From positions 41,476,333 through 41,540,332 of the forward strand of contig NC_092686.1 of NCBI RefSeq assembly GCF_964275005.1: a DNA stretch of 64,000 nucleotides. The letters run 5' to 3'. Below are positions 16,773-61,094 of the stretch, one piece after another. Made by a program: the position numbers and the translations under genes. The stretch's first letter is position 1. Each line of letters opens with the position of its first letter. This DNA is from Diadema setosum. Its lineage: Eukaryota > Echinodermata > Echinoidea > Diadematoida > Diadematidae. Below the pieces are notes generated by a model. The model saw only the letters and a list, made by a program, of their open reading frames with translations. It was not told the origin of the DNA and did not search any database.

Positions 16773-16893
16773 TTAACCCTCAAGGTGTAGGTCTTTGGCC
16801 ACTGTCTTGGCTGTGATGGGGTGCATGTTGCGCCTGTTTTCCAGGAATGTGTCGATGGCTCTCTGCCGCGCATCGGGAATGGCGTACAAGTCC
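16773..16893 (-). CDS. LTA4H: LTA4H terminal coding exon 17 (residues 579-618 and stop)
   Basis: Encodes [20 protein letters not shown] then [19 protein letters not shown] and a TAA stop. It matches the family C-terminus (MHPVTA-LV-KDL). Acceptor GTGCAG, phase 2 entry. Confidence 0.95.
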
Positions 16894-19324
16894 CTGCACG
16901 ATGGATAGCATTGGACTTTGTTTAATAACAAGTTCTGAACTTGGCTGTATTTTCAAACATCTCAAACATGGTGACATGACATTTGCTCCTGCCACAATTG
17001 CTCCAGTCTTATTTTCTCCGAGTACTTAGGGTTAGGGTCAGGGTCTCGATAGGACTTAGATTCAGTATGATGTGAGGATTAGGATTAGGGTGAGGGTTAT
17101 GTTTGTGGGTTCAATTCATGTTTGGCTTAGTGTGCATGCACTTCATGGGAGCAATTGTCACAGGAGCAAATGACATGGAACCCTCAAACACACTCAAGGG
17201 AATTCACTCTGATAACGATGATAATGTTATAACAGAACAATAGACAACGGACGATGCATGTCGGACAATGGAAAATGAATGGACGATGAATGATTGGGAA
17301 AGCTCACTTCAGCCTTTGGCTAAGGTGAGCCGAAGTTAATGTTTCTAACACATCTGATTGGCGAAATAGACAAGGGCCGCACACTTTCAACAGATAAATG
17401 ACCATTCATCTCACTTGCACAATAGTGAGTTTTTGCTGCTCTGAGCAAGCAGCACCCAATCACTGTAGAATACTTGTAAGCATGTGTGTCATATATACAA
17501 AAAAGCAACAACAATAAGAAACATACAAAATCTAGACCCGGTCAGTTTTGTCACTGGAGATACATCTAATATCTAACAACAGAACCCTGTTTCAACTAGA
17601 ATTTGCTTGTTGGCTCTTCTGCCAAAATTCTACTGCTTTGCTACTTTTACTACTTTACAAGAAAACAGATGGAATTTAGAAGATTTGGCACAGGACTTTA
17701 CCTTCAAAAGTATGTTTGAATAGCTTGAACTTTTGAAAATGGTTACTACATCAAGATATATTCTCACCTGTAAAGGACACGGGTGAACTTCATTCGACCT
17801 GTCTCCACAGCCATTTGAAGGGCGCCCTCAATGGCAGACTCATCACCAGCTCGAAGCTTCAGTCTCAGCCATCTACAACCAAACCATTTTGATGTGCACA
17901 TCACTGTGACTTTCTAGCATATTCCAAAGTACTGAACTTTACACCTTCAGGTAACAGAATAGCATGAGCTAAATTTGGGATAAGATGGCAAGTAAGATTT
18001 GCATTAAAAAACACAAACATGAAAACTTAAATATTCTTTTTACAATGTCTAGGGCATCTTCCACTTGTCTTTGTTATGCACAGTAGAATGGTAGCTGCGC
18101 AATATAAATGTCCTTTGCTATTATTATTTAAGAAATTATGTGAAACTTGTGACTTCAATGTTAATTGTGATTATAAATGAATAACTTGCTCTGGCACGCT
18201 AACTGAATCGGTCATCAATTCATCACATTTGAGATTGAAATTTAATAATAATAACAACAATACTAATGATAATAACATTGTCAATTGGGGTTTTTTACAT
18301 GGCACTTTCTACCATGAAGAGATGGCGACCTTGCTTTGCAAAGTCTTAGAATGTTTCACACACCAAAAATATTAGCTTCAACTTTTCTATCTTTTTGATG
18401 CTATTGATATTTTTTTTTTTTTTTTGTTATCTCTGTTAACTAACACAGTTCTTTCTCAGGAACTTTTATTTTATTTTATTTTATTTTATTTTTTTTTTTT
18501 TGTCAGATGCAAAGTACTGTCATGGAGGTGGATATTAAATTAAAACAGCAGTCAAAATGTTTGGTTCAAGCCAAAATTTCTCAAGGTGACTGCAACACTA
18601 TTTTTAAGTTTTTGAGCAGATCTCATAACTTTGATTTAAAAAAAAAAATGCTATAGTGCAATCTAAAGTAAAATCCTGTATTCAGAGGGTTTGCACTGAC
18701 CTACAGTTTATATCGTCATGACAACAGTGTTTACAGAGCAAAAATCGATTACCTAAGATTCACCAGGGAGGTGAGACAATTCACCTCCCTGGATTCACAG
18801 AGTCTACTGTAAAGTATTAGTTTGCTCACACATTACTGATATTCAGGAATGTCTATGCTGGCAATGAGCACTGAGGACACATGATACACATGGTTGCAAT
18901 TGAAATGATTGCAGGGAATATTCAGGATACTTTTCCTCACCTAAATCTGATTTCAGAGTTGTGGTTCTGGTCCAGGTTATACACTTCTTGCATTGCACAA
19001 ATATGTTTGGGAGTCAGTGGTTTCTGTTGGGGGGGGGGGGGGAAGAAGGATAAAGAGAAGTGTCATAAATTGCATGATGACAGTTGATTACTATACAGTT
19101 CACACGAGTGGAAAGAAATGGTAACAGCAATGCCAATCAATGTTTTCCCACCTAAAAAGCCGCACAGGCAAACTGGATCGCATATCATATTTGTACGTCA
19201 TTCATCATACGTAGCTTCAGAGATTTATATTAAAATGCAACATCAGGAATAAGACACCTCAAACACCTGAAATCTTATTCCGAGTTCAAAATGTCCAAAT
19301 CCACTACTACTTCAAACAGGTACA

Positions 19325-19373
<49 letters not shown>

Positions 19374-22300
19374 TTTGTTTATTGTGTATGTCATTGTAAT
19401 TTACATTTATTTATTCATTCATTCATTCATTCATTCATTCATTCATTCATTCATTCATTCATTCATTCATTCATTCATTCATTCATTCATTTATTTATTC
19501 ATTTATTCAGTCTTCTTTCAACAGGTGGCCCCATCAGTAGGCAGGTACTGTTCTTCCTGGGGGTCCTGAACATACAAACATGACAGATGACAAAACAATG
19601 ACATTTACATTAAATACAACATACTGTACGTGGACAAGTACAGTTCTTCCACTGAGTCCCATACATTTTAACTCTATTGTACAAATGCATTTATCCAATG
19701 AGAAGCTCCTGTCTTAACTCCTCTTACTTTGAAAGGAAAGAACTAGTAAGAATAGCATAAATGCTTACTGTATTTTGTTGTCTTTTAGATGAGGTAAACA
19801 AAATACAATCTTTGGATACATTCATTTATACAACACATGCAATAGATCCTTGCCATCTGACTGGATGAATGTGGGTCACATGACATTCAGAAGAATCAGG
19901 TACCCCACGCTCACTCTTAATGGCAGTGCAATAGACATCTATTGAACAGTAAATAAAGCTAGCCAGCCATGCAATAAATCCTAGGACATACTGAACTTGT
20001 GTATCGTAAAGCATTGGTGCACATGCACTTCCATTTAAGACCTAGAGCCAGATCTAGTTCTAGGCCTTACTGTTAGTCCTCCTCCTAGATAGGTTTGATG
20101 TTAGATCTATTTGGGTCTGGACCAGGCCTATATCGTGTTTTTTATAAATATTCAACATTTTATAATTCGTGCAACAGTTTGAATATTACATTCAGTGCAA
20201 GTTTAACCGTTCTATTAAACTCCGCTTTGTGTCTTAGAATAGAACGATTAAACTTGCACGCTCATGTACCATTCGTAATCACTGCACTCATAAACAATGA
20301 ATATTTGTATATTATACACTTCTGTTTTCAAAGGTACTCTTTTCCCCCAGACTAACCTCATGGAGAAGCTGAGCAAGAAATTCCTGAACCTGGGAGGATG
20401 ACATCGATTTTAGGTCATCAGATGAGAACTGTCCAAAGTCACCTTCAGATGCCTGGAAAGCAATTTTATACATGTAGATATTCAATAAAGGGGACATGTC
20501 CTATACACACATATATGGCATCATGTTGATAGTTATTTGAGACTTCTAAAAGACAGCTCAGGTGGCCTTTTGTAATCAAGCAAATCTGTATCAGATTCAT
20601 ACTCTGCAGGTACAATGCACAACCTTACTGTACCCCTCCCCCCCCCCCCAAAAAAAAAAAAAACACATACACCCTAATCATGATGTGACAGGGGCTAATA
20701 ATCACACAAGCGGTACATATACATCTGTAGGTATAGAATCATAAATAATAAACAAAGATACGATTAAAACACTCCAACCCCATAAAAAATACCGAAAAAT
20801 CATAGGAAAAAGAAAAAGCACATTGCTCAATAATTATCATGGGCATACATTATTTGCAGATTTGCATTCCTACTTTTTCACCACATGCTTTCTGTTAAAA
20901 ATAGTCTTTAGTTGAATCTGTAGATTTGAAAAATAAAATAGACTGCTCTTCTAAGCACAGCCCCATATAGTCCAGCAGTGTCTTGCAAAACAAGGATAAT
21001 AAACATGGTAAAAAAAAAAAAAAAATGTGCAACATGGATATAAAAGCAAACACCTTACACTTTATTTGTAAGAATTAGCAGATAGCATGTCGACATAACT
21101 TTAACAAGACACACTGTGCATTACCGTAAACGCAGAAATTTTCGAGGTACATTATTCTTCACATTTTTCGCGCTACTTATGGCTAGCACGAGTTCTAAAA
21201 CCTGTAAAAATATCTTCACAATTTTATCTCCACATTTGGAATCATTTAACAATTGCACAGTGCAAATTCAAGAACCTGCAAATTTTATTGAGCCCCCCAG
21301 GGCGAAAAATTTATCGCATGAAAATATTTATGTTCACAGTAGCTTAGAGGGGCTCGTATCAATCACTGATTGGCCAGCTGTATTTCGGAACATTTGGATA
21401 TTGGAAACTTGTCACTCTTTCTGGAGTTATGATACCAGTGCTGATTTCACAGCATTTGGTAAAATCAACCGAAGCCACTATTGATAGTGCAATTTTTCAC
21501 ACATCTAATCCCAGCCCTGTCTAATATGTCCACTTCACTGCCTCCTTACCTCAGCCCATTTCTTGCACAACTCTGTGCACATGTCACTCAGGGTTGTGTC
21601 ATACCTGGTAAGAAACACAAACACAAAACATGAAGATGTGTGAGATACAGTGCATGTCCATTATAATAAACATGGTTATAATGAAGCAAAAATTCAGACC
21701 ATAACATTATCCACTCTCCATATTTCTATTGTTCATTTGTTCGGTTATAATGAAATTTCGATATAACGAAAGAAAACTGCCAGTCCTGAGGACGGGAGTC
21801 CACTGTATAAAGAGTGTTAAAGTCTCCTAGCAAAGAGCTGTTCGATGAGGACGACCAAATTGTTATTTCGAAAAATACGACCTTACACACAATAGATCAT
21901 AATAGATCACCAAGTCTCTTTCTATTCATTAACTGCCTGCATAAGAGAAAAGATATGCTTTAATCTTCAACAGCATGCACACGCAGGCATGGGCTGCAGT
22001 TAAAGAGTATGTGTATAGGGCAAAAAAGAAATGCTCATGATACACTACTGCTTCTCAGCTTCACAATTCTTTGTTCTATCATTCTTTAAAGAAAAAAAAA
22101 AGAATATAATGATCTTTAACAAGGAGGATGAGGGGGAAAAAGAAGAATAGAAGATGAAGAAAAAAATAAGAGAAGATTTCAAAGTTCCAGGACTTACTTT
22201 GGTGTGACAGGTGGCATTCCAGGAGCAAAGAACCATTTGTCCCACTCTACACAGTCAAACACACCAGCAGTAGCCTAGTTTGGGGACAAGGGACAATGTA

Positions 22301-25300
22301 GATAATTGCTGCAACCAAAATTGGCACATACACAAGTCATACATGCTGAATGCAATTTATGCAACTTCAAACCAGCATGAAATCAATACATACATTTATG
22401 ATAATCTATCTTCATCTTTATTGCAAAATATAAAAAGAATCTCCCACAAAAAAAAAAAAACACATAACAAAAATGAGCACACAAATGATGACATATTATT
22501 TTGTTTGCCCTGACCCAAAATAGACACAGCACATAAAGTGCAACATGAACATTACACATATGTATTAATCTACTATGTAATCCATTGCTTGGTATGCAAA
22601 GAAGGAAATGGTGTTGTAGAAGTACATCATTCATGTGCCACACAGCTCTTGCCCTTCCCTGTCCCCTTAAAGATTTTTAATTATCATCATGAAATATCTC
22701 TAAACCAATAAATGATAATAGGTAGAAAACATGTTGGGGATAATATGAATCACGATAAAGATGAAATACGAGCAATAAAACATCTAGTAGAGCTTATCAT
22801 TAGTTTTCAGTACCTAACATTCACATACATGTACTCAAATTAGTAGTCTACAAACATTGCAAAAGCTTTTGTTGTTGTTGTTGCTTAATCTTATGGCACT
22901 TTCCATTCACAGTGAATATGTATGCCAGAAACGTTGTTGTTAATTCTCTTTGAATACAGCTTTACATTTTTCAAATTGCAAAAGCAAAAGAGCAGACAGT
23001 AGTCTTGCAACAAGACTTTCACAAAAATACCTGTTCCTGGAAGTATTCTAAGAGGTAGTCCTTCCAGTCCTGGGTAGGCAGAGTCTTGTACTTGAATTTT
23101 TCAATGTAGGATTTCAGGAATGCTTCAAACTCTGCAAAATGAATGATTACAATGCATAACATCGTTAGACGATACCTCCAAATCAAGACCCTTTAATGCT
23201 TAATAAGATGTATCATAACTATTGATCTCATCATGAAATAGACAAGCTGGTCAGAAAGAAATGGGGCAATTTCCAAAAATATATTCTTTTGAGTGATCTC
23301 TTCTGGTTCAATTGGAAGGGGTACACTGTACCGTTCTTGTGGAAGGATGATTTAGAACAGCTTTTTTGCACTTGAACATTACATGATACAAGTATGTTAT
23401 GTTCATCATGATATCATAAAATGTGTTCACTGTTTAACACAGTGAAAATGTATGAATAAAAACCATATATCCTTCGAGGGTTTGTTTCAGGTTCATTAGT
23501 TTGTTTTTGAACCACTCGATGGTGGAGTTTATAATTCTCTACTCTGGCCCTTTATCACTTGCTAAACATGAATAAATTCTAATCACATAGAATTTAGCAT
23601 GTTAGGTACAGTAAGCCAGACTTCATTTTCTTCCAAATGTTGTCATTGTATTTTGTCGTAAATCTACCATGCATGTCTGACAGTTTGGTCATTTATATCT
23701 TGCTTTTTCACTTTTATAGTCATTTTTCACACTGATTAATTCTTGGAAAGTGTGAGGCATTGAGAGATTAAAGCATGGACATTTACCAAACAATTACAAT
23801 GAAGACAACGAATCTGTAAGTTTCCCCAATCCCCAAATTAGATATGAATATACCAAAGCAATTAAAATTATTGTTGGATATTGACTGTATCCACATTTTC
23901 TAATCTTGCAATGGCAAATATCAGTAACTTTGCATTTGGGTTAATGTCGCCAGCGTACCAAAAACCACATAAGAATATAGATGCAGATCAACAATGTTAG
24001 AGTGCAGATTTCCAACAGGATTTGCAACATACTAATATTCTGGGAAAGGAGCTCACACTAATTACAAGATTTCCCTAACTTAACATAATTCCTATCAAAT
24101 GTCATTCCTAAAATAGCTTGTCTATGTAACAAATTTGCAGTTTACCAACCTGAATTTTGACATGACAAATTTTTGTTGGGTTTGGAAGGAATTGTCTTCT
24201 GTCTACTAAACAAATATGATTACATTGAATTAATTTCATGCCTATAGCAATGATAATAAAATTTCTATATTCTATTTTGCATTGTGAACCATCAAAATAT
24301 TCTAGCATATGACAGCTTGGGGCCTTTCAGCATACCAGATGCTTAACATCAGGTTCTTACTATACAATGCCATGTGAATTAATTTAGTAATTAATAATTG
24401 CATATACAATTTGCTGAGGACATGTTTTAAATCATTGAAGAGGCATCTATCTACACAAATACGCTGTATTTCATTAAGAGGAGCATGCACAGCTGATAAC
24501 CAAAAAATTTCAGCATAGTCACAAGAGTGATATCACATTTACAATCATACCAATGCCAATACAGAATCAACAGCCATATCATATCAAAAATATTGCTATA
24601 AGATTTTCTCTTTGAGATTAAGTCTTTACAAGAACCAATTATTTAATGTCTAATAGCACCCTACGGTAAAGGTTTACAAAAAAAAAAAAAAAAAACACAA
24701 CCACAAGGAACAATCTTACACAGGCAAAGGAAAGCAAACACTGTCCTTAAGCTTCTGCTGCAGCAAAATCTACCAAGCTCGGTCATACTAGCATTTGTCA
24801 CTTCACAAACTTATCATGCTGATCAAAGACAAATATAGTGAGTCAGTTTGTTGCTTTAGGGTATTTGCTTCAGTTTTGACATGAATATCTATCAATCTTT
24901 TAATTGATCAATTAATAATTTTCCACTCATAATTTGAATGATGTGATAAAGATTGGCATGAAAAGGTAACAAGAATTCACAGAATATTGTTAAAATGTGT
25001 CTTTAAAGTATGGTGAACGAGACATTAAAATCAAGAAAATCATATAAAAGAAGATGTCAAAGCAGAGGGAAATGTCTCCTAAAACAGATTTTTAACGTAA
25101 CTTAGTAAAAAATATTCGCGCCACTGAGAAATCGCGAGTTAAAACTGACTGATTTGCTTCACCGATATTCACTCCAGAACAACTGTCTTTTTCGAGTCCT
25201 AAAATATGATGTCACGAAATGAACAAAACCCTTTACGAGTGCAGCAGGATATCGAGGCTGCCATTCATAAAGCACATATTTCTTGGTGAGCGGATGCAAT

Positions 25301-28300
25301 ATCTGGCCTGTCTTTAGTCGCCTCTGCTTTCTCGGCTGAGGCATTAAAACGTTCAATTTTTACCTTATATTGTACGGAAAGACTTTGAGTTTGACATCGA
25401 GAGTGAATTGAGTGATGACAGTAACAATGACACTGATAGTGACAATGGCGAAGTCGGAGTGGTAGAAGAAGCACGGGAGAGGCGACGGATATGGAAGGCC
25501 GCTGCGGACATAACTCGTTTGGGGCATACATGGAAACGGGCACACTGCCTCTCCAAATGTATGCCCCAAACGAACCACGTCCGCAACGGCCCTCCAAAGA
25601 CGGAGCCCACTGTGTGGATGGAGTGGTAGCGCAGCGCACATTTCGTGACGTCATAATTTTGGTCACCAAAATTTCGCCGTCAGATCGGGTTCTGGTGGTC
25701 TAAAAAGGGTTCCAAAACACCATCTCTCCATCGTTCTGGAGACGTTTTTACCTTCTAAAAGTTAATTATTCATATTCCTAGAGACTTAAAGGGGCCGCGA
25801 AGCCCAAATCAACCTAATTTTCAGGTTTAGGCCAATTTTATGTAATGTTTTGTGGTGATTTCGCATTTACGACTACTTTTTGATGATTTTGATGAATAAA
25901 AGTGTTATTTTGAGAGAAGATACAGCTCTGGGAACGCCCCCTGAAAAAATGTCAAAAACATGCACACGGCGCGTACGTCCTCATACGTCATCTCAAGAAT
26001 GATGCGAGTTCGAGCAGATGCGTGCAACGTATACTCAGCTCTATTTAGCACGTAGATTCTGTTAGCGGATAACAGTAACACAACTAGACCTCTAGCTATT
26101 TTGCTTTTGAATAACCCTTGAGGCTTTCCCCGGAACTTAACATGAGCGATTCAGACAGTAGCGTGGAAGAGAGCGCAATTCACTTTTCCAGTTCAGATTC
26201 CGAACATGACAGTCTTGCTGAAATTTCTGACCAAATTCGAGCTATTCTGCAGAAATCAGACCCTACGGTACAGGTTTGAGCCCGAGCTCGCAGATGAACT
26301 CGAAGATGAAGGTGCAGTCGGAGGTGAAGACGAGAATGAAGAAGACATTGAGAGGAGGCTAAGCAACAGAGATTGGTAAGTCAAAATGTTGATTTTCATT
26401 TCACTGAAATTCTACTGTTTTTTTGTCGCAAAACTGTAACGTTAGTTCCCTATTTACCAATTTGCCCTTACCCGTACTTTTGCAGCTTCGACGTGCATTA
26501 GTATGTCAATCGGCCTGGGTGTACATGCTTGCCATAGCTGTGCACAGTCACAGCCAGCCGAGCCTAGTCATTCGGCACTTTGGCCGTGCCATACATGGCG
26601 GTACTATCGATGTAACGGGGTACCGGGTTTAGCGTAGGCAAAGATTTATCATTTTTTTTGTTTTTTCATGAGCTGGGCTAGGAACTCGATATGAATGAGC
26701 AGAATTGAGATTTGTTTCGCTCAGCAATCATATTTGCATAAGCATGATGTTGATTTATGGTAATGGGGTAGACTCTATATTAAAAAACCTAGGTTTTAGA
26801 TCTATGTGGAAATTTTCTTTTTCTTCAGCAATTGTAATATTTTTAATCATCGTTTATATCAACTAAAGAGACAAGCTCTGATCATTCCAATTTCAGAGCA
26901 AAGTGTTCATTTTTTGTTACAAGTAAATTCTACTCAAGACTACTGTAATTATCTAGTACTGTACTGGTATCATCTAGTATTATAAATGATGTTGATTTAT
27001 GGTAATGGGCTAGAGTCTATATCAAAAACAACAACAACAACAACAACAAAACATTCTTATTGTGGACAAATAAATATGGGGAATTATGCATTGATCGGGC
27101 TCCCTCAAGCTCTGCCCCGGCGTTTTCCCCCATGCTGATACATGTACGAACAACAGCGCCTATAACAGGTCTTGTCTGCGCCTGCAGCCCAGCACAGTGA
27201 CTGCACTAGGCTCATGCTGACGAATGACGATGTTTCATTTCATTAATTATCCCCGCTCTTTATCTCATCATAAAGTCTGAATTTGATATTTATGTGCATT
27301 TTTACAATGAACAGATTCTTAATCAGGCATTTTATTGGTTGTACAGCCCCTCTTCGAATGCATCCTCCGGGAAGTGGGCGCTGCACACCAAACTTGAGCC
27401 ATCCCAATTGGCCCTTGTCGTTTTACTCGTGTGGTCCAGATTCTCCGTAAATTTGGATCGTTGGGAAAGGTGTGAAGGCTCACCCCATCCTATGCCGTGT
27501 TACTACACCCTGCAATGATGCATCGTCCAGGCATGGTTTCATTTACAGGGTGCAGCTAAGATCTCTTGAAAATATATTTTTGCAATCAAACGTTTAACAA
27601 CCCAACGTCTTGTGAACAATCAACACACGACAACAGCGTGGTACATACGCCGCCGGGTGGGTATGGGCCGTGTGCGCGTGCGTATACTAACGTTAGTATA
27701 CAAGTAGTATGTGGTACGGGTGCCTCGCATATCGGCTATGGTCAGGAGTGTCGTCAACTACGAAAGCTTCATTCTTGAGATGACGTATTCGGTTACGTGA
27801 CTCACATTTGTCGAAATTTCACTTTTTTTAGCGGCGGAGCTTAGGAACTTGGACATATACAAAATCAAGATGGCAAAATTGGATTCTCTCTCTTACAGGT
27901 GCTTTCTACAAACAACTGGTGAAAGATTATCAAAGAATAAACACATCTTAGCCCTCTCAGAGCTCAAATTTGTGGATTTCACAGCCCCTTTAAGCTTTCC
28001 AGAAATGTATAAATCACCTTGTTTATGAATATCGTCCTTTTTTTCTCGTTCACCATACCTTAAAATGATTTTGAACTTCTTTGAAAATCAAATCCCTAAT
28101 AAACACCCTTTAGAAGGGACATGTGAAAATGCAATATTTTCTATCAATTTCCTTTAGCTGTTTGGACCTCTATAAGAATGAAAACCCACCAGCCAATCCG
28201 ACCAAACTCTCCAGATAGAACAAGAAACTGGAACCTTTCTCATACGCTATTGTGGAAAGTGCGTCATCGGGGTCTATACCGCCCTCTAGTGGCACAATCA

Positions 28301-31300
28301 AGTGAGTGAACTGAGGACTGTCTGCAAATTTCTCCATCTATCAAGACAACAGAAGTAAACATGCAATGACAACACCAATTAGCACATGAAACACCAAATC
28401 AAGTTAAGTATTAGTATCTCAACAGGGAAGAGTATCAACTGCTGCAGTCAGAGTGATAAGCCATTTCAACATTAAAATCACAATTCTGACACATTTTCAC
28501 AAATCCTCACGGTCACATGACTTCATGCCATCTATTTCTACACATCCATTAATTTACCAGTATCAGCACAGCCTGTGTACTTCCATTGCCATGTGTGGCC
28601 GTGGAAGTAGTAGGAACATGCAGAACCAGAGTGGTGCTGGCTTGTCCATTGCAGAATGATATTTACAAACATTTAAGACTTCGATCTCCTGAAGATCTTA
28701 AGAGTCATTTTTCTGTTCTTTTTCACAATCACTTTTGGTTCTGAGGAATCAAATACTGTCTTCAAAAAGCCCTCCACGTGTGAGTGTGGAATTCTTGCAA
28801 GATGTGTGAAATAGAGTAATCAAGTAACTATCAATACACTTATCATAAGTAAAATGCTATTCTTTGTTGATATGACTTGATTGGATCTTTGATTGGGGTC
28901 TTGCAGAAATGAAGTCAGAAAATTGGGATTGTCGATGTGGAATGGTCAGAGTACTGCGAGCAGCTTGGGTTAGGACTAGAGAGTATCCAGAGATTTGTTA
29001 GTTATGGAGTATGACTACAGTTCTGAAAGGGGGGGAGGGGGTGAGCAACTTCCAAAGAGAGACCCATGGATGGAAGACCAATGTTTGGTTATCTTCAAGA
29101 GACCAAAATGATGGCAACAGAGAATTGGATTATAGTTACGATGAAATGGCTTATCACCAGGATGACAGTGCTGCTGGTTAGTGTGGCAGGCTGAATGCAC
29201 ATTGGTCATTTTAGCTTCTTACCCTGGACGCCTACGAGTGATTCGAGGTAGAAAAGAAAGCAGGAGCCCTTTTCATAAGGAACGCTACTGAACGCGTCAT
29301 CTGGATCAATGCCGCCCTCTAGGGGCGGAATGAGCTGGGTGAACTTGTGCTCAAAGCCATACTTCATCACCTAATATACAAATACAGTAAGTAAAATGAT
29401 GGCAAGACAGAATTGGGTTGTAGTTATGATGAAATGGCTTATCACCAGGATGACAGTGCTGCTGGTTAGTGTGCAGGCTATTCAACATGCACATCGGCCA
29501 TTTTAGCTTCTTACCCTGGACGCCTATGAGTGATTCAAGGTAGAAAAGAAAGCAGGAGCCCTTTTCATAGGGAACCCTACAGTAAGCATCATCTGGATCA
29601 ATGCCGCCCTCTAGGGGCGGAATGAGCTGGGTGAACTTGTGCTCAAAGCCATAATCCATCACCTAATGTACAGATAAAGTAAGTAGCGGATGTAATGCTA
29701 ACTTATGAATTCAAAGAATGAAATGCTTACTTGAATAGCAATTCAATACATCATAATACAGTATGTTATGTATTATTGGGTTTTCAAAAGCAAAACCTGC
29801 ATGCATAATGACGCTGTGGGATATTACTTGGTCCAGCTCTAATTGGGTTTCCAAATGCAAAACATACACATACCATGGTCCTTGATTTTTATACTTGATA
29901 TCTATATCTTTATACACACTTGTAATTTGGTGGTCATTGAAAAGAAAACCAGATATGATTGATGGAATAATACAGTGGGTGGTCTACAGATAAGGCTAAA
30001 ACCCAGACAATTGAAATCTCAAGGCATATTTGAACAGACTTCTCACATATAACACATTGTTCCACTAGAATTGAGTCAATAGTGTTTTATGAGATAGTCT
30101 TTCCACAAATAGACCAACATCTGCACTAGAAGAGTACATTTGTACCTCATCAATTGCGCTTCAAACAGTAAACTGAAATAACATGCATGATAAAATCAAT
30201 GACGAGTGAAAAGTGGCGAATCAGTGCTGGAGTTGAGCGGAACAGATCATGAAGAGAAGCACTATGCAAATGATTGTATAAAAATCTTGGTAAAGCAGAA
30301 TGAACGATAAAAAGTCTACACATTTTTTTTATTCATGGACAGCCCAGGGAAGTCAGATGGTTCTGCCTTTAAGCTTCATTGGTTCTAGCTTTTCGTTACT
30401 GATAAATATCATCAGGAAAATTGCCTAGACCATCACCAGCCTTATCAATAATGACAGTCTATGACCAGCTATTGATTTATGTGTTTCCTCTTTACTAATG
30501 ACAGTAAACAGGTCTATGTCATGATTAGGTTGAACAAAGACAAATAATTCTCCTTTTTTTTAAATTCTCTACAGGGAGTGACATAAGCATTCTCAATCTT
30601 TCCCATGAAATTAATAAGGGCATTAACACTACAAATTTAGACAAGTGCTAACACACTCCTGTCATTTCCAATGGGCAGATCAATAGCACCCTCCACATTC
30701 TCAACATGATGGAATTGAACTGAAACTCACTGCATTGAGGAGTTCCTTGGTGCCGCCGATGAAGGCAAAGTGTCTCGCCTTCTCCCCCTGCATCCGGCCC
30801 AAAATCTTCCTCTCCACGAAGACGGTGAAGCCCTCGTTGAGCCAGAAGTGCTCCCAGCTGCAGTTGGTGACCAGGTTTCCTGTCCAGCTGTGGGCAATCT
30901 CGTGTGCCACAACCTGCACAAATAGCGATTGAAATAGGATTTCACATTGCTTCTTGAAACACTGCACTTTTGGCTGTGTACGTAGACCAAGAGGATTCTA
31001 AAGCAACACAGCAAGATATTGGAATGCACACAAAAAGAGCTATACTGCAACTTTTTGATAGATCCATTTAATAGTAGAAGTGCTATCCTGCCAAAATGTA
31101 TGACTATGGACTTAGATGTTACATAGCTATGTATTATATTTATGAGAGAGTTTTATTGCAGGTAGTTTAGTGCTGGAAAAATTCATAGAAGGCTGATATT
31201 TCATTGGTAGAGAATATTAAGATCTTCATTGTTTCAGGTGACACACAACAGCATAAACACTGGGCCTTTGTTTGCCAAGAATAGCGATAAATTCCAAGTT

Positions 31301-34300
31301 TGTTCAATAGACAGCCAGGTATTCAGTAAAATCAGACACCAGTCTCACAGTAATGATACTTGATAATACTAAGGAGGTTTTATACATGGAGTTCCAACTG
31401 GCTGTAATTATTCAAACAGTTGTTAGATTTCTATTGATGTAAAAAAAAAATTCCACAGGTGCACTTGTGCCTTTGATGATCGATGTTCAACGCCGCCGTC
31501 TTGCAGAGTAATCTGAGGATTCATTTTGAACGTTATTATAATGTTGGCCATATTTTACTTATTTATTTAAAAATGAAATGAAATTTCACTTAATGATAAA
31601 GCATGTAAAACAATAGTTAATTCCATCCAGAAATTTGCACAAAAGTGTAAATTAGAGCTGTATCATGTGAAAATGTTCAATCTGTACCATCCTGGAAAGC
31701 TTGTTTTATCACTTTTCCGCTTAATTTCCACAAATGAAACTAATATAGAATAATCTTCAAGTATAATTCTTTATTGATAGATATATAAGATTAGTACCCG
31801 GGTATGCCCAGTCAAGTAATTTTCATCTTCATTTCAGCATTTTTTTGCTCAATTTTTATTTGCGCCTTCTCGTGTCTGTACCATCTACCTTTTATAAGAA
31901 GGGATAGCGAAAAGTAATGACCATCACAAAGACATATCTTTCTTTGAAAGTGGCTGGTGATTATGCAATGAGACACGAGTCAATTGTCTTCGTATCTGCG
32001 CCGCAGATCCTGTTTGGCACATGCTTCAAATATTTTTGAGCGGCGGCTTCGAACATGGGATCAAAGGGAATAACACTGTTGTTATTCCATCTCTTGAACC
32101 TCCTTGATAATACAGAGAAAAAGCCTACTGGATAATGCAACCAAACTACCATCTACTCGCAAGCAATCTATAATCAGTCATACAAGAGTTGCATCATTAC
32201 TTTTACTCGTGTTTATGTATAAATGTTAATGCCACGTATGAAGAAAATCCAACTTTATTGATTAAAATTTTTTTCAAAACTAAGCAATGTGCAGAATACT
32301 CACATTTGCTAGTGACCGGTCTCCTGCCTGTAAGGAAGAAAGTGAGAGGAAAAAACAACAACAACTCATTATGTACTTGCACTGCTGAAAATCAGTTTAA
32401 CAAAGAACAGTACAGACCTTGGCTGCTCAAAACAGACTGATTTTAAATTATCAATGTTTCTCTCACTAACTCTGCTTGCACTTATTTCATTTATCATAAT
32501 CTGGATCACAGTAACTGCAGAAAGAAACAAAAACAGCAACAACAAAGAAATGAATGACATAATGAAAGAACAATGCAAGTGAGAAATAACGGCTTTGTTC
32601 CACTAACAGTGATTAATTTTTCAATTGTCATAAATTTGCGTGGATATCATCACATTGGTCAGGTTTTCATGAGACAAATATCAAACTATGATCACTGAAA
32701 TCAGCTATTATTCAGGTGCAAATGCACTTTAGCCAAACCTTGTGGAGCAAAAACATATTAGATTTTGAATGATTCTCCCTCTGAAATTGGCTGCAACTTA
32801 ACCCATTCCATACTAAATTCTGAAATGCCTATAGACTTAATATGCCTGCCACCACGTCCCCGTTCGGAACGGCATAAGATAAACAAAGCCATGCAGCTGA
32901 ACAATGCCAATGTCTCATAGGAAGGGCAATGTTTATTACACAACATACATTACCAGGGACCTGTTGCATACAACTTTTAACCTGAAAACTCAGGTAAGTA
33001 TGATTCTGCCATTGAATTAAACACATGAAGAAAGAATGTCAAAAATAACCCAAGTTTTCTCCTGTAAAAAGTTTTATGTAACACGCAACATGATTTCATC
33101 ACCACAATTCATTGACCAGCTAAGTGTCAGGAATTCTGAGAGAAGACGGTACACTGACAAACGCAGCACAGAACATGTTATCTGACCCTTGCCAATGCAG
33201 ATGACAAGCCAAGTCCAAACTTGTGTATCTATCTATAGAGGTATTTCAACAGATATAGTTGAGTCAAATAAAGGATAACAGATCGACACCGCAATATTTT
33301 CCTCACCAGCAGAGTGGGTGTGACAAAAGTGAGACAGGGGTTCTCCATTCCTCCATATGGGAATGACGGGGGCAGGATCAGCAGGTCATACTGCCCCCAC
33401 ACGTAGGGCCCCATCAGGTCTTCTGCAGTGGACAACATCTCTTCAGTCTGATGAGGAAGATGTAACACAGTTCATACATTCCACATGATGAGGTTGGAAA
33501 TAGGTAAAGATATCAGTACTTATTTAAGTGTGTGATGTTGACGTTATGCAATTGCATGCACATCTAACTAACATTCTATGTTCAGGTCAAATGTGTCTGG
33601 TAACGTTACTTTATTGAATCAGATTTCAGAACAGATAGCCTTAACTCAATCCCCACCTAGAATCCAATATGGTGAATATATTTTAGATTGATTTTAAGTT
33701 CATGAAAAAATGTAACTGCTGCACTTCAAGGGCATAATACTCTCAGATTATGAAACTGAAAGTGCATACAATGAAAGTTTGTTAACACCGCTAGACATAA
33801 GACATCTCTGAACAAAGAAACAACAGTGTTGTAAACACTTTCTTAACTCACCTTGAGGAATTTCTGGTAACAATAGATATTTTACCTTGGAGACTCATGA
33901 CAAAGTAATAAATTTTTATCTCACAACTGAAGTAACCTCTCAAGGATACCTAACAAAACCTACAACTGACAATGCTTTGTTATTATGGCACAATATAGAT
34001 TGAACAAATGTGAAAGAGAAAGGAGAGAGACAACGTTTAAAAAAACCCCCAAAACAGTAGCTTACCTCTGCAAACTCGTATGCAGACTTCTCAATGAGTT
34101 CCTTCTCAGACCATACTTTTGAACGTGGCCCAATTTTTCTAGAGTGCAATAAGAAGAAGTTAACAAGTATCAAAATTGACATGATTCTTCCAAAACAGCA
34201 GACATGCATCACTTGATGTGTTGTGAGTCCTAGAGTACATAAACCTATTGAGGACTAGTCCTTAGTATGTTCCGGCAGGTGTCTGTTGGAAATGCGTGTT

Positions 34301-37300
34301 GTAGCAAAATCAGTCCGTCCTCAACAGGTAACAACTCTTTTATGAGACATACAAATACAAAGTTAACAAATCTAAGATGCCGTTTACAGTGCAGGGCTGG
34401 GCCAAACCTGGGCTAAGCCCAGGCTGAGCCTGGCCTCAATTGCGGTACTCGGCCTTGCAATACTGTCAGTTTACAGTGGAGGGCTCAGCCTGGGCTTTAA
34501 TTCAAACCTTTCAATATTTTGTGGTAGTGGCGCTCTGCTTGTAAACAAACAATTATTATTAGGAGCGCACCAGTCGCAATTTGGTACCGCATTTGGCCCA
34601 GTTTCCATTCACAGTGAGAAAAGTCTGGGTCAAGACTACCTCCAGAGGTTGGCCAAATGCACGGCCGTTTTTGGTACTGTATGTGGCCTTTTGAGCGCTT
34701 ACAGTGAAAGGAAAGCCAGGCTCAGCCCAGCCTTTTCACTCACTGTAAACAAGGTCTACAACACTCTGATTTTATCCAATCAACAGAACATTGAATGACC
34801 ACAAAATAGGATGAATATATCAGGCTGATGTACAAATTGATAGCAGAGTAATTCCATCCATACCATCAGCCCTTATCTTGAGCACAATCAAACATATCCT
34901 GACCAATATTAAGACACTCCACATATTAGATTGTTCAGGAAGCTACATCATTTGATTCATGAAATTTTTCCATCGAGATGTTTTTACGTCGATGTAGAAC
35001 AATTTGTCAATCAGTTACATCATTTGAGTTAAAAAAAAAAAGAAAAAGAAAAAGAAAATTTATTGACAAGGAAGTTCACCTGCTTTCCAGTGCTCCAACA
35101 ACAATAGCTATCAGATAGCTTGGCATAGGGACCGTCTGCTTGAAGGAAAAGATCTTGGAGGCACTGTCTGATGAGCAAGGCTCATCCCCTTCCCCACAGG
35201 CACTCATCAGACACACCAGGTCACGGGGAACTGTCACCTACACATCATATATTGTGAGAATGAAAAGCAATACACAGACTATCGTAGCACAAAATCAACT
35301 AGATTCTTCTGTACAACGCAATGCCAGAAGTACGCAACCAGATTGTCTCTATTTCTGCAAATGCTGAAATATTGGTGGTTGTTTCTCGAAAATTTGGGAA
35401 ATAAGCTCTCAATCATGAAAATAACAACGCGCAGAAATATTGACAAAAATGTGCCCCGCATGCACTGTCCAAGGCCAGCACATGATTGTTGCAACATCAA
35501 GTCAACAAGCACTAATACATTTGTGTTTCTGACAGACTTGATCGCATTTCAAGCAATGTTTTAACAAAAGTTTGTTTGAGTAGTCACTCTTTCTTCTGAA
35601 TGTTTGTGTTAGGTTGTTTTTGTTTTTGTTTTTTGCAATGATCATGATAAAACCACAAAGCACAAAATTAAGTTGCAAAAATGTCTGATCAACTGTCATT
35701 TGTGAAATATCAGTGCATGAAAATAGTAGCATTTACAGTAATAATTACGACGTAAGTCAACAGTTTATTCATATTGTTCTTTTTGTCTTTCACTTTCCTC
35801 ATACAGAAAGTAAATATAAATTCACACTGTCTCTGTAATTACAATTACATTTTGTAAGACTTAAAAGACTTACAAATCCAAGGTGTTAACACTGTTTAAG
35901 TTCATGGCATGCCACTCTTTCCATGACCTAGATAACCTCTAGATATGCAAACCTATGAAGGTCTGTGAACATATATGAGTTGACCAAGAGTATCGAGCTT
36001 GGTTACGGAACAGTCATCTGATTTGTTTGATTGATTACCTTAGCATCATAGGTTGCCTTGACGGATGGACTGTCTTGACACGGCAGAATGCTTCGAGCAT
36101 GGATAGCCTGTAAGAATGGGAGAATGAATACTTGTTGCTAACTCAGGCACACCAATCATCTGACAAAATCAATGTTGTCCACTCTATGTTGTAGTAAGCA
36201 TATTCCATGCTCTTCTAATACCTTGCTATGCAGGTTACAACACTACTTCAAGCAGGGCTCAACACTAACTTTTTTGTCGGGTGGCCTGTTTGGGCCACAA
36301 AAATCTTTTAATCTGAAATTTTGGTGGCCCGAAAAAGATATGTAGAAGCCAGAAATTAAAGTAAAGGTAACAATCTATTTTGAATCTCAGTTGCCTAATC
36401 GGGCTACAAAAAGATAAACTTGGTACCCCAACATCAATCTTTAGTGGCCCGAGGCCACCAGGCCACTGGGTCAACAGGCCATTGGGCCACCAGGCCACCA
36501 CCAATGTCAAGTCATGTTCCAGCATATTACACCAGGGGAAAAATTGTACTAGCATTATTTTAGTAGGATTTTAGCTAAAACTGTTGTTGGAGTAGCAGTA
36601 AACATATAAATTCTGTACCTATACATTTAATGGGTTTTCATTTTGCTTGTGATAAAGGATTCAAATTCATCATTTTACGTAATGACAACAAAGTCAATGC
36701 TTTGGTCTGTTACTGACATGTATTCCCATTTTAATTGAATATAGTCTCTTTCTGTCCAAGACCATCTCAATGAGATGGACACAAAGACTACCACAAGAAA
36801 GTAGAAAGCATTGTCTCTTTAAGGACAAGTTCACCTTCATTAACATAAGGATTGAGAGAATGCAGCAATATTAGTAGAACACATCATTGAAAGTTTGAGG
36901 AAAATTGGACAATCCATGCAAAAGTTATGAATTTTTAAAACTTTTGTTTTGGAACCACTGGATGAGGAAACTACTAAGGCTCGTGATGTCATATGAGTAC
37001 AACAGTATAAAGAAAATTCAACATATTTTCACTTTTTTCGCATAATAAAAGAGCACATGACTTGCCTCTTTCTAAAGGCAATGGGAATAATATTACCCAT
37101 AACATATGTCAGTAACGAGTCAAGGGAATGTGTACTTTTTTCAAAAGATGAAATTTTGTGAAATTCTCTTTATATTTTCCCTATATTGTTGTACGCATGT
37201 GACATCATACACTGCATTAGTCTTCTCATATAGTAGTGACTGCACAAAAACTTTAAAAATTCATAACTTTTGAACAGATTGTCCGATTTTCCTCAAACTT

Positions 37301-53500: not shown

Positions 53501-56500
53501 TCACATTTTATCATTGTCAAATCCTTTAATATGTTATATGTGCATATTCGGACATGTTTTCAAATTCAAACTAACTCAATTTTAATCCGAAAATAGGTTT
53601 CCTGAAATTGTTATTAGCTTGAGAAGTTGTTTACTTTTTCTCAACTACGCGAGTACATGTTGTTTACTTTATGCAAATGAGGCTCGGCTGCCGATGGATT
53701 TCTGCGAGATATTTGGGGTGCTCCACCGCGCCTGTTTTAATAATCTTAATTCAGTGCTGGCATTTTATTTCTTGCATTATCACTCCAAGGTTCTTGTAAT
53801 TCTGAGAATCTGAATTCATAGCATGAAAACAGTGTTTCATTGCTTTTTTGAAAATAATATGTTTGTCTTGTACTGCTTTGAAAACTAATGTGTTGTCGCT
53901 TTGGTAATTTTGGTTGAAATGGAAACTTTACTCCCTGCAGGAAATACTAACTGAATTTTCATGTAATATTATATTGGGGAATACTTCAAGATTAACCACA
54001 ACCTACTGTAAAGTCCTAGCTTATTGAATTTGCAAAGAAAAAGTGAAAAAGTAACAATTTTGCAATGAATTATGAAAATAAAAGTTTTGCCAATATGTAA
54101 GAAGCCCTTTTATATCACAGTTTACTGTATACGCCATATATTTAGCGAGTCTAAATTTTCGTGAATCAGGACTTCCCGACGATTTTGTGAATGGTTAAAT
54201 TTGTGATCGTGGAGTTAAGTACTGAACAGAGATGTATACACACAAGCACATCATGTTAATATCGGGATCAGAGTCAATTTATATTTTAGCGTGTCTTTAA
54301 ATTCGTGAATAGCACCTGACTCACGAAATTTCACAAAGAAAAATATGTCGTGAAATATTCGGCGTATACAGTGTACAGTATTCAACTGTTGAACACACAT
54401 TTATTACATGCAGTTTATTGCTATTCTTCAAAATGATTTTCTTGTATATCAATATATTAAGATATTTTTGTGTTGCCTTGTTGTATGTGTTAAATATACT
54501 GTTTTTTGTTATTGTTGTTCCATATGGCTGCCTTTTTATGTACCGAAAGAAAGCAAAGAACCCCAAAAATATTAGTGCGAGCTGAATATCAAAGAGAAAA
54601 CTCACTGCTAGACATATTCCTTCTCTATTTATTGTCTAGCTAAAAGATTTGATTTCAGACGTATGTATGAATACAAAATGAATACAGTCAACCTTCCTAA
54701 GTCAAGTCTATTTGGACTGAAGAAATAGCTTTGACTTACAGAAAATTCGACTTATGAGGGATTATAATCAATAGAATATAAAGAGAAGAGGACTTGAAAA
54801 GACCTTCGACTTAGACGATTATTCAACTTATGTAAGGTCGACTTTAATAAGCAAGGTTGACTGTATTTAGCTGTGACGCTGTGTTTTAATGTGTTGATGT
54901 TGGACTGTTTGGCATTCAATGTAGCTTTCGTCACTAGTTTTAGCCGTCACTCAAATCACCAATCACGTCAGCCAGAGAGAGTTGTACACTTTACAACCAA
55001 GCTTTCTGTCGCCTCTTCAGCCATTATTTTTAGTACATGTCATTGACAGATTTAACGCAGTATTTCATACTGCTGATGAGAAATCTGATGTAGAGAAGAG
55101 AAAGAGTTTATTTGAAAGTTGAAATACTTCCAACAGCTGCACCATGTTCATATGCAATTAATGTTTCCACAGTGATCAAATTTTGTTCAGATCTTTTTTT
55201 TTTCTTTTTTTTTTCCAGCAAAGTTTGTGGTATGTAGTTTATAGACAGTTCTTTGCGGTCTTTCCAACCTGTTATACCATCTGCACTGTGTGTTGACCAA
55301 TATGCGTTCAGTGTTTGAGCTGACATTGTTTGTAGTATCATGTAGTTTGCCCACTGCAAAACTAAGTCGCCCTATTACTGCTTTTTGAGCTTGTGAGTGG
55401 ATTCAGCTCAAGCTTTCTTCACAGCAAATGTTGAGATTATAATACAAAGATACAAGTCCTTTGTGAATATAAAACACTACTGTAGAGGCGAGGCAGTGCC
55501 AAGGAAACGTGTAATTTGCAACGCTACTCTTGGATATATACATATTGATTGCTGTTTCTCTATTTACAGGAGGGTGCAGGCATGAGTGGAGGAGTTATAG
55601 CTGACAGTGCGGTAGGGAGCGAAGTGAACGCCGCCCCTCAGGGTCCAGTGGAGGAAAGTGGCTACATTGTGGACGACCCCTCTGACCCCTTGGAAATCCT
55701 CTTCAGCGCCGTCATGGGTCACCGCGATGTCACCGGACGCATTGTCAGTCTCATGTTCCGCAAGCTGCCGCGGCAACATGAATTCCCTGCCTACTATGAG
55801 ATCATCGATCATCCAATCGATCTGTGTGACATCGCTGTCAAGATAAAGGTGAGAATGAGGCGGATGACTGGAATTGAACAGAAAATAACACAGTCCATTT
55901 GAGCCATTACCCTCTCTAGTGTTACATCCCAGTAGTTGCTCTCCTCTTTTGAACTGAACAAGACATTGCAGTTGGATAACAGGTTTTGTGTTAATGTGGC
56001 TTTTGCAAAAGTTACAATGAGTTTTCTTATTGTGTTTCATCATGACCTGTTACGAAATGTATATAAAAAATGAAGCTGAAGAATGTATAGTCCATTAGAT
56101 ATATCTCATTATCAATAATTTTGGCAAATGTAAGTGCCAGCTTGTGGCAACTAGAGGAGAACAGAAGTTGTTTTGTTTGAAGGTTGGTCCATGTATGGTA
56201 AGATAATTACGTGTAAATGGTTTATGGAACATCGTGAAGTTTCCGGAGCTGTGTTTGATTAGGCTGTCTCTATGAAATCCTGAAGAGAAGTAAGCTATGC
56301 CAGCAAAGGACTGCGGTTGACTACAGACTGGCAGCAGTGCATAAAGTGTCAAAACCTTGATGTGTAATGGCATGGTTTCCTTTCAAATGCCTCCTTTCTT
56401 GCTTGTGACCTGATAATCAGAACAAGAAGTATGACCGCCTGGCAGACCTCGACAAAGACCTCTCCTTGATGGTGAAGAATGCCAAGTTGTTCAACGAGCC

Positions 56501-59500
56501 GGGCTCCCAGATCTACAAGGATGCCGTCACGCTGAAGAAAGTGATCGTTGCCAAGAAAGCCGAGCTGGAGCGCCAAGGCAGGGATGTCCACCATGCGAGT
56601 AAAGCAAGGTCTGTGTAGGTTGTACGTGTAGCTTCTCCAATGCCGTGCAGTTATTTAAGGGATTAAATGTTTGCTTTGTTGTCAGGGATGTGAGAAGAAT
56701 CGGTGAGATGAAAAGCTGCATGAGTTGTTGGCTTCTGTAGATGGTTAGCAAATGGCAAGCATACTCGTTTTTAGGAAGTGAAAAATTCAGCAATTTTTCA
56801 AGTCTTTAAAAATCATGAAGGAGTCTGAGCATATGAAGTTCCAAGGGGGATTTTGGTTCCCCTTTTTGTCCCCGCCGAACGAGTTCGAGCAGGGGACTAT
56901 GAAACGGGCTCCGTACGTGTGTGCGTCCGTGTGTCCGTCCGTCCGTGTGTCCGTCCGTGTGTCCGTCCATCCGTGTGTGCGTCCGTGTGTGATCAAAATC
57001 TTCAATTTGCTACTTCTCTGTCATTTATGAGCCAATTTTGATTCTGTTTGCTTTATATGATAGCACTACATGGGAGCTTTGAAACTTCTACACAGAATTT
57101 CAGTCGTGACCTTTGACCTTGACCTTTGACCTATATTGTACATTTTGCTACAAAATGCTACTCCTTCGCCATTTCTAACCCGATTTCGATTCTGTTTGCT
57201 TTATGTGATGGCACTAGGTGAGGGCTTCAAAATTTCTACACAGAATTTTGACCTTTGACTTCTTTGACCTTTGACCTTGATTTTTGACCTGTATTGTACA
57301 TTTTGCTACAAAATGCTACTCCTTCGCCATTTCTAACCTGATTTCGATTCCGTTTGCTTTATGTGATGGCACTAGGTGAGGGCTTCAAAATTCTACACAG
57401 AATTTTGACCTTTGACCTTTGACCTTAATTTTTGACCTACATTTTGTTGTACATTTTGCTACAAAATGCTACTCCTTCGCCATTTCTAACCCGATTTCGA
57501 TTCCGTTTGCTTTATGTGATGGCACTAGGTGAGCGCTTCAAAACTTCTACACAGAATTTTGACCTTTGACTTCTTTGACCGTTGACCTTGATTTTTTACC
57601 TATATTGTACATTTTGCTACAAAATGCTACTTCCGGCGGGGACATATATTACGCACCGCGTAATTTCTACTTTTCCTTGTTTAGAGCTGAAGTGAGTGAA
57701 AAAAAAAAAATGCACTAATTTATCAATGTTAGTCACAAAATGTTCTATATAATTGATGCAATCGATAAAGCTTGTAGACTTCTTTTGCCGAAAAAAGTGT
57801 TTTTATAGCTGATTTTCCCCACTTGATATTGCTAGTTGAAGTATTGTTCGTATGTTTTGCTGTAACTGTTCCCATTTCAAATTCTTCGTTTAATCTATGA
57901 CAAATCTCATTCCAGGCAAGCCATTGCTCACGCCCAGTCAGCCATCACCGAAGCCCTCAATCTGGCAGGCTACGTGGAGAGTGTCAAAAACACACCCATC
58001 AGCATCGGGTCATCGCTGGCATCCCACGGGCTGCTCGGCCCCTCCCTCACCTCCACTCCGAGTGGCTCCCTCAACATCGACGAGGACGACGAGGACGACG
58101 ACAGCTTCTCGGCTGACAGCGGCGACCCGCGTCACGTCCTCTTCGACTTTGTGCTGCACTTCCGCAACCAGCTGGGCCAGCTGCTGTCAGAACCCTTCAT
58201 GAGGCTGCCCAACAGCCGTATCTACCCAGACTACTACCGGGAGATCAAGAAGCCGCTGGCACTGACCAAGATCAGGTCAAAACTCAAGGTCAGCTGTTAC
58301 CAGGAATAGTCAAGCTTCGTAGATCCATCCCTCCCCCTTCCACTTCCGGACCTTGATAGTGGGCCACGCTAGAACCGTTGCCACAGTGTACATTAATACA
58401 CACTAGCAAATTTCATTGTCAGCGCAAGTCTAGTGTGCCCATCAAAAATTCGAACAGATTTTAAATAAATCTGTTTATCCAATGTTTTTACTTGATGTTT
58501 TGAGGTTCAATGCTTCAAGCTACCGTGACCTTGACTACTACATGTATCTTCACTTCAAACCTTGCCCCAGTACTGTAGTTGTTTGTGTCAAGCTAGTTCT
58601 GGTGTGCCATTTCAGCCTATTATAAAAATCCCTCCTAACCCTTGTTCAGGTTCTTGTTTCAAGGGCAAATGGGCAGATTAGAAGAAAAGGAAGTGAAACT
58701 GAATTGAGTTTCTGTAATTTTTTTGTTTTATTTTGTTAACTATCTTACGGCAGACTAACAAGTACAAGAATCTGAGTGAGCTTGGTGCCGACCTGGAGCT
58801 GGTGTTCAAGAACGCCTTCCAGTACAATGACCCCTCCTCGCAGCTCTACAAGGATGCTGAGACACTGCACAGGGCTATGCTTCACAAAAAGAAGGAACTA
58901 GAAAAGAGTGATGTGAAGGTAGGTGAGAATAGTGTTACTAAAAAAAAAAATAAATAAATAAAAAATTTGAGTGGAAAAAATTTGATTCACTAGATATATG
59001 GCATATACAGTACATGTGTATGTGTATATGTCTGGAATTGATATCATTGATACGTCATATATAATGCATGTTGCATGTGCTGGTCTAGAGCAAACAGTGG
59101 CATGAAAGTTCATTACGAGCTCTTTTATCATAGGCAAGGCTTTATACTGATCATTATTTGAAAAAAAAAAATGAATGAAAGGAAAATCAAAGAGTATATC
59201 ACCTGAAATCATGGGGAAGACAGAGATTAACATAATTGCTCTCCATGTGTATAGTTACATAATGACTGCCATATGAAAGATTTTGCTCACTATATTTACA
59301 TGTCTTAAGATAGCGATCACATGTTGAGATCCTGCTGTGTGTGTGTGTGTGTGTGTGAGTAAAATCAGTGGTCATCAGGATGGTAGAAAGTATAATGAAA
59401 TTTGACTACTGCCTATCATGCAAAAGTCGGTGCTTATCGCAGATAATCTTAGTCACAGCCTGCCAAGCACAGCATCTGTTTAGAACTAACTTTGTGTGTG

Positions 59501-61038
59501 TCTGTTTTTACCTCAAAATACCTTTGAAGTTTGAACTATCATTCCTTTAACTCTTGGGGATTTGTAGATCTATTCATCCTTGAAAGTAGTCTATGTCTTT
59601 GTTTGAGGTTTTGTGAAGAATGATTGTGTTATGAGGTTTTTCAAAAGTAAAATTTTGGAATCTCTGAAATCATTAAATATAATTTACACTCATAGTGAGT
59701 AAGTCTTTGTTGTGAAATTGTTGCAATGTACGTCCTTGCATTCAAAACGATATTCCAAAGAATTGATTGCAGTTCTCCTGCAAGAAAGATCAACTGGATG
59801 TGGTATGATAACATATGTGTTTGTAAATATATGTTCTTTTTATCCCCAGAAGGAATTCGAGAGTGAAGATGAAGGAAGCGAGAAAGGAGGAAGTGAAAAG
59901 GGAGGAAGCGAGAAGAGTGGAAGCGAAAAGGGAGGAAGGCGGAGAAGGAGCGGCGTGCCACCCTGGAAGTCGAGGAGATCCGATGCCGAGTCCACCCTCA
60001 AGACCAAGATGATGATGCTCTACCAAACTCTAGTGCAATATCAGGCAAGCCACTTGGAGAAATCTTTAACGGCATAGAATACGTACATGATTACTTTCAT
60101 TTAGCGTAGAATTTGATCTTCAATTCATGTTTTTATGAACTGAATCATCTGCATGCAGTAGTTTCCTGTACCTTTCTGTGCAACACAACACTACAAGCAA
60201 GCAAACTCCAGAACACACAAAACATGTAATCATCCTATACTATAATGCCAACTCATTGTGCAATACCCATGTACCTCTAAGATTCAATGAGGCAGATTAT
60301 GAAATATAATTTAGATGAAAGGAATTGATAAATCATTGTTCTGTGTATGTTCTACATTTTCAACAAGAATAATTTCATGAATGAATATCCTTACAGAGCA
60401 TATGAATCATTGTAAGTGTATTTTAAGTGATGAATGTTCAAGTTACTCAGGTTATGGAGAATTTGTACATGACTGCGTGTGTATATGTTTTTGGAAGATG
60501 TAAACCAACGAATAAAATGAAGTATGACAAAATGATAAGAGGTTCAGATAAGTCATTGTGAAGTTCAGTAATTCACAAAGTAAACTGCAGAAATTTTGCA
60601 GTCTCTCAGAATCTTCAGCAAAGGTAGTGGGTTTTGTGCCAATATACAGTATGTTTGATGCATCAATGTATTATGAAGTGAGTGGGCCTCGTTCTTTTGT
60701 CAGGACGGGACAGGAAGGAACCCCATCGCTCTCTTCATGGAGAAGCCATCAAAGAAAGAGTATCCCGACTACTACCACATCATCACGGAACCCATCGACA
60801 TGCGCACCATCGAGGGAAACATCAGGCACGACAGGGTGAGTGTTGGCTTCCAGCAGTGATGATGATGATGATGACGATGATGATTATGATGACGACAGTA
60901 ACTTTGATGGTGATGATGATTATAATGATTGGTTGATGACGATGATGACGATGACAATGATAATTATGATGGCGACAATGACATTGATGGTGATGATGAT
61001 TATGGTTGGATGATGATGATGATGATGATGATTATGGT

Positions 61039-61094
<56 letters not shown>

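Follow-up and report, generated by a model that had tools for sequence, protein, structure and literature searches.

Three tandem versions of an active-site exon in the leukotriene A4 hydrolase gene of the sea urchin Diadema setosum, candidates for mutually exclusive splicing

The stretch analysed here, called the window throughout, comprises 64,000 nucleotides of the echinoid Diadema setosum (assembly GCF_964275005.1, contig NC_092686.1, forward-strand positions 41,476,333 to 41,540,332), and all coordinates below are counted from its first letter. On its minus strand it holds a complete gene for leukotriene A4 hydrolase (LTA4H), with a product of 618 amino acids, in which coding exon 10 is present three times, as E1, E2 and E3. 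Exon edges were set by hand using splice sites, open frames and phase. In the model containing E3, Pfam recognised Peptidase_M1_N, Peptidase_M1 and Leuk-A4-hydro_C; these three domains and the zinc motif place the product among the leukotriene A4 hydrolases. Its production of leukotriene B4 (LTB4) from leukotriene A4 (LTA4) is a prediction, and the fold assumed for it is that of the homologous human LTA4H. Protein searches were run with queries of 608 amino acids, lacking ten residues at one later exon junction. The E2-containing query matched human LTA4H at 747 bits, and among the matches listed the nearest protein was that of Diadema antillarum (P0001, 96% identity), followed by Lytechinus and Strongylocentrotus at 75%. 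The gene is laid out as follows.

16773..40296, minus strand: whole LTA4H coding gene, 17 coding positions with the stop included, from three full models and Pfam
40296-40138, 39132-38990, 38386-38266, 36107-36039, 35237-35080, 34138-34066, 33447-33307, 32327-32304, minus strand: coding exons 1-8
30731..30913, minus strand: coding exon 9, common upstream partner of E1, E2 and E3, with the zinc site HEIAH...WLNEG
29515..29662, minus strand: E1, first version of coding exon 10, with Tyr at human position 378, attag and gtaag splice sites and a full 618-amino-acid model
29223..29370, minus strand: E2, second version, with Phe at 378, the version found in D. antillarum P0001
28190..28337, minus strand: E3, third and oldest version, with Leu at 378 and Ala at 382, under amino-acid constraint
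23031..23131, minus strand: coding exon 11, common downstream partner of E1, E2 and E3, placed in the full models
22274-22198, 21604-21550, 20452-20357, 19023-18941, 17872-17768, 16893-16773, minus strand: coding exons 12-17, with the stop at 16773

An initial annotation, made from the letters alone, had described three open exons of 148 nt at this place, and this holds at 29662-29515, 29370-29223 and 28337-28190: each copy is entered in phase 0 and left in phase 1, and is preceded by AG and followed by GT. E1 and E2 are 90% identical over 49 amino acids, and E2 and E3 are 70% identical over 46 (tblastn, E = 5e-18). Since E1 and E2 belong to a 292-nt tandem repeat and E3 matches E2 at that E value, the copies are not a product of chance. 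No fourth copy was found in the 64 kb by tblastn with each copy and P0001; the remaining matches in the window had E values of about 0.1 or worse, or fell on the other exons of LTA4H itself. Similar length, conserved splice sites and frame, and homology are among the criteria given in PMC3228551 for predicting mutually exclusive exons, as far as the accessible part of that paper sets them out. Here the length is 148 nt in 3/3 copies, AG/GT and phase agree in 3/3, and the amino-acid homology is 90% and 70%.

The reading frame separates single inclusion from every other arrangement. We computed all eight inclusion patterns of E1, E2 and E3 on coding exons 1-9 and exon 11; three stay open, each with a single copy, and the other five stop early. 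With E1 joined to E2, the frame closes at codon seven of E2; for E1+E3 as well as for E2+E3 the stop lies inside E3, and skipping all three copies leads to a stop at the sixth codon of exon 11, as the initial annotation, whose exons 9 and 11 are coding exons 9 and 11 of the list above, had traced by hand. The inclusion of all three copies, whose 444 nt are a multiple of three, stops inside E2. Only single inclusion therefore gives a full protein, as had been proposed, and the complete models with E1, E2 or E3 each run for 618 amino acids up to the terminal stop.

The exchanged segment carries residues of the active site. Residues were numbered through alignment to human LTA4H, in which the aligned chain counts one above the usual numbering; codons 24, 27 and 32 of exon 10 thus correspond to human Asp375, Tyr378 and Tyr383. 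In the human enzyme, Asp375 activates the water added at C12, Tyr383 binds the epoxide oxygen, and the LTA4 triene, whose cis configuration is tied to Tyr378, is stacked upon by that residue, according to PMC8954237. Asp375, Tyr383 and the EKG that follows Tyr383 are kept in all three copies. Residue 378 varies: E1 has Tyr, E2 has Phe and E3 has Leu. Mutation of the human Tyr378 to Phe is said to alter the geometry of the product and to confer resistance to suicide inactivation. Our homolog set consisted of 119 of the best 120 matches among 7,990, one row having been dropped by a position filter, most likely the 774-amino-acid P0033, which has Tyr378. In this set residue 378 is Phe in 93, Tyr in 26 and Leu in none. 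The combination of Tyr378 and Arg380 seen in E1 also occurs in a sea cucumber protein (P0009, Apostichopus) and in the similar P0010. The other echinoderm and hemichordate sequences aligned with these two have Phe378, and Tyr378/Arg380 is a pair that E1 has gained.

E3 is old and constrained. Between E2 and E3, 95% of synonymous sites differ, that is, they are saturated, compared with 27.5% of nonsynonymous sites, giving a ratio of nonsynonymous to synonymous differences (pN/pS) near 0.28 (bootstrap 0.18-0.43). In 5,000 neutral simulations of 62 changes each, the number of altered codons never fell as low as in E3. Furthermore, E3 carries a one-residue insertion, in the motif LEGG, that is common to only four of the 119 homologs, P0001 to P0004, which include three named echinoids. 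In a tree of exon 10, E3 groups with these echinoid sequences and outside the E1/E2 group of Diadema, on a long branch and without resolution. The shared LEGG and the position in the exon tree make it probable that E3 originated within the echinoids and has since been retained as coding sequence.

E1 and E2, on the other hand, lie in a much younger structure.

29105..29685, minus strand: tandem duplication of two 292-nt units, carrying E1 and E2 with intron on both sides

The spacing of the two units is 292 nt and their similarity 90-94%. With four gapped sites left out, they differ at 10/148 positions in the exon and at 17/140 in the introns (3/23 and 14/117). Six of the ten exon differences fall within 21 nt (codons 25-31) around human residue 378; with the freedom to place the stretch anywhere taken into account, a permutation scan gives this clustering P = 0.018. 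Outside this stretch the exon differs at only 4/127 positions, fewer than the introns (Fisher P = 0.006). Gene conversion from E3 to E1 was considered and ruled out, as codons 25-31 of E1 are not E3-like.

The introns of the cluster also contain a site before E3 to which one site after E1 and another after E2 are complementary.

28453..28488, minus strand: docking-like site, within the intron that precedes E3, with an exact core at 28453-28468
29408..29445, minus strand: selector-like site 1, within the intron that follows E1; its complement is 28453-28488, with an exact 16 nt at 29430-29445
29121..29157, minus strand: selector-like site 2, within the intron that follows E2; its complement is again the docking-like site, with an exact 16 nt at 29142-29157

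The 16-nt core before E3 has one exact complement after E1 and one after E2, and a search tolerating up to three mismatches found only these three places, all of them exact. With that tolerance 1.14 places were expected, and at least three turned up in 10 of 100 shuffles; the weight therefore rests on the exactness of the 16-nt matches. Complementarity extends imperfectly to about 37 nt, with an alignment score that none of 2,000 single-base shuffles reached for either partner. The predicted duplex energies are -85 and -77 kcal/mol, compared with shuffle means of about -62, and none of 200 shuffles was as low for either selector-like site. Rfam gave no match. A model for the origin of such a system is described in the accessible part of PMC6071210: when an exon is duplicated together with one arm of an intronic stem, two selectors come to compete for one docking site.

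Taken together, the anatomy is secure, and mutually exclusive splicing is its best reading, from which we infer the use of the copies in RNA. We consider it more likely than not that E1, E2 and E3, as tandem duplicates within LTA4H, form a mutually exclusive exon cluster that would swap 49 residues of the active site. The initial annotation had gone on to propose that one gene makes three enzyme variants; mutually exclusive splicing itself gains from the anatomy set out above and from selection on E3, and the three enzyme variants stand as a prediction. An old duplication would have given rise to E3, and the later 292-nt duplication would have copied the other exon along with its flanking intron. 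Each mature mRNA would then carry exactly one of the copies, and double inclusion or skipping would break the frame and be expected to lead to nonsense-mediated decay. Pairing of the docking-like site with selector-like site 1 would loop E2 out. The products would all keep the zinc peptidase core (Tyr383 and Asp375) and differ at residue 378, with the mammal-like Tyr, the Phe of most homologs, or Leu. The predicted outcome is a set of enzymes that hold the LTA4 triene in different ways.

Several observations weigh against this reading, and they are given here with the alternatives that they favour. The first concerns E1: the switch between E2 and E3 may be real, with E1 a recent copy drifting toward loss and open by chance. 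Indeed, all five amino-acid differences between E1 and E2 are derived in E1 (by comparison with P0001 to P0003), and one of them gives Cys at residue 379, where 119/119 homologs have Ser. In 5,000 neutral simulations of E1 with ten changed sites, the frame stays open in 72%, and it stays open with equally few changed codons in 8.1% (10.1% by codon count alone). Neutrality is thus compatible with the simulations, and E1 may be drifting unused. The 21-nt stretch around residue 378 (6/21) exceeds the introns only at P = 0.086, and it was picked after seeing the data; because of this P value we do not claim positive selection at the active site. However, the differences gather at the active site, and the introns have changed more than the remainder of the exon, even if constraint on E2 alone could partly explain the latter. 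Moreover, the residue that E1 has acquired at 378 is the only one that homologs use there besides Phe, the sea cucumber protein and the similar P0010 share it together with Arg380, and the splice sites of E1 are intact. On balance we regard a two-way switch with E1 drifting toward loss as unlikely, though it has to be taken seriously.

A second alternative is that only E2 works, E1 and E3 being relics or rarely used exons, perhaps poison exons that would cut LTA4H output through the decay of double-inclusion transcripts. Each extra copy does lead to an early stop, and the sole close protein record, P0001, has E2. E3 is changed at positions invariant in the family: it has Ala at residue 382, where 119/119 homologs have Pro, and its Leu378 occupies a position that is otherwise Phe or Tyr only. 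Its donor, gtgggt, looks weaker by eye. A region search for E3-type proteins returned one of 39 candidates, the E2-type P0001, and a 71-amino-acid E3 query had one candidate and no match. The protein database searched groups sequences at 90% identity, so that a single entry would conceal the isoforms of one gene; P0001 stands for three member sequences. The length of the intron between E1 and E2, 144 nt, does not by itself prevent the two exons from being joined, and we do not claim that too short an intron causes their exclusion. Against the sole use of E2, one would not expect a relic to come through the saturation of synonymous sites with its frame open, its two splice sites intact, a length of 148 nt and a pN/pS of about 0.28, and a poison exon needs no conserved active-site residues. 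We therefore find it improbable that E2 is the only working copy. As for the assembly, the spacing and likeness of the two units and the heterozygosity of sea urchins might suggest that two stitched haplotypes produced a false E1/E2 duplication, but this is very improbable, since their intron divergence of 17/140 (12%) is about six times the 2.11% heterozygosity given for D. setosum from HiFi data in the part of PMC11066563 used here, and since stitched haplotypes do not explain E3.

Further points weigh against the pairing of the intron sites. Among the 13 control intron pairs that were completed, four had two or fewer of 40 shuffles as stable as the pair itself, and one of these had none. 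Exact inverted matches of at least 16 nt within 1.5 kb number 23 in the window, at about 12 places in the 64 kb, where a Markov model expects 0.025, and longer inverted pairs are present in the same 9 kb as the cluster. Such pairs are thus far above chance and yet common, presumably through repeats. Besides, the docking-like site lies inside the cluster, and its pairing would bring E1 or E2 toward E3, which is a frame-breaking join. Because about 12 places in the window hold similar inverted pairs, a firm claim of a docking/selector mechanism was dropped. That the sites after E1 and E2 compete for the one before E3 we still hold to be possible, with the balance tilting somewhat toward doubt. 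The inverted repeats at the 12 or so places, among them 255-857 and 36821-37371, are exact over 16-48 nt within 1.5 kb, and the two largest look like long palindromic elements.

There is a hint that starfish may also have alternative versions of exon 10. Between Patiria (P0006, isoform X2) and Acanthaster (P0007, isoform X1), identity is 36/48 in exon 10 and 493/556 elsewhere, which makes exon 10 the least alike of 13 segments (Fisher P = 0.011, uncorrected for the 13 segments). In the exon-10 tree Acanthaster goes with Asterias, a pairing not seen with the remaining protein, but the approximately unbiased (AU) test does not reject the usual grouping (p = 0.275).

Other features of the window lie apart from the cluster or within its longer introns. 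A partial THAP-like domain on the minus strand at 27335-27499 (Pfam E = 0.0004, 21.5 bits, under the curated cut-off of 23.9) falls in the 5-kb intron that separates E3 from exon 11, and it is probably the remnant of a transposon. On the plus strand, bromodomain pieces occur at 55549-55899 (Pfam E = 1.4e-4) and at 57974-58306 (E = 2.1e-7), so a multi-bromodomain gene lies at 55549-63264, upstream of LTA4H and pointing away from it; we take it to be perhaps polybromo-like. At 57003-57631 about four copies of a unit of some 155 nt form a tandem array.

Mutually exclusive clusters are known in several genes, and Dscam1, 14-3-3zeta, Mhc and MRP1 are those named in the accessible part of PMC6071210. 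Like them, the LTA4H cluster has adjacent homologous internal exons of equal length and phase and an intronic site complementary to several others; the use of one copy per mRNA is a prediction here. Unlike them, it consists of three copies in a soluble enzyme, whose catalytic residues would be swapped, and its use in RNA is put forward from the genomic layout. Its layout has the form of the duplication model in PMC6071210 except in one point: the docking-like site is found within the cluster, ahead of the last copy, rather than outside. Another known system is pyruvate kinase PKM, named among genes with mutually exclusive exons in the part of PMC5740500 used here. With PKM the LTA4H gene would share the tuning of a metabolic enzyme via one swapped exon. 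The alternative exons of PKM alter its regulation, whereas the swapped exon of LTA4H carries active-site residues. The comparison with human LTA4H concerns the same family and the same residue 378: there the change at this residue is a laboratory mutation, and in D. setosum the same kind of change is found in alternative exons of one gene. The initial annotation knew of no description of alternative active-site exons in this family, and we found no account of alternative LTA4H exons in the open-access literature either, judged from titles and the openings of abstracts. Neither mutually exclusive exons nor docking/selector control is new in kind; the unusual point here is that the exchanged piece holds catalytic residues.

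If the copies are used, one gene would offer a natural experiment in which Tyr, Phe and Leu can be compared at LTA4H residue 378, the position tied to LTB4 geometry, within an otherwise near-identical protein. The cluster may also be a compact case of duplication generating competing RNA selectors. It is a speculative idea, to which we give only modest credence, that the echinoid switches the chemistry of LTA4H by splicing, with E1 (Tyr378) giving an LTB4 synthase like that of mammals, E2 (Phe378) the form common among animals, and E3 (Leu378, Ala382) an enzyme without triene stacking that would act mainly as an aminopeptidase or on another epoxide, and that alternation of the active-site exon may be wider in echinoderms. 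Should the copies be used, the role of LTA4H in echinoderms, and the separation by splicing of its peptidase and epoxide hydrolase functions, would become questions that can be asked.

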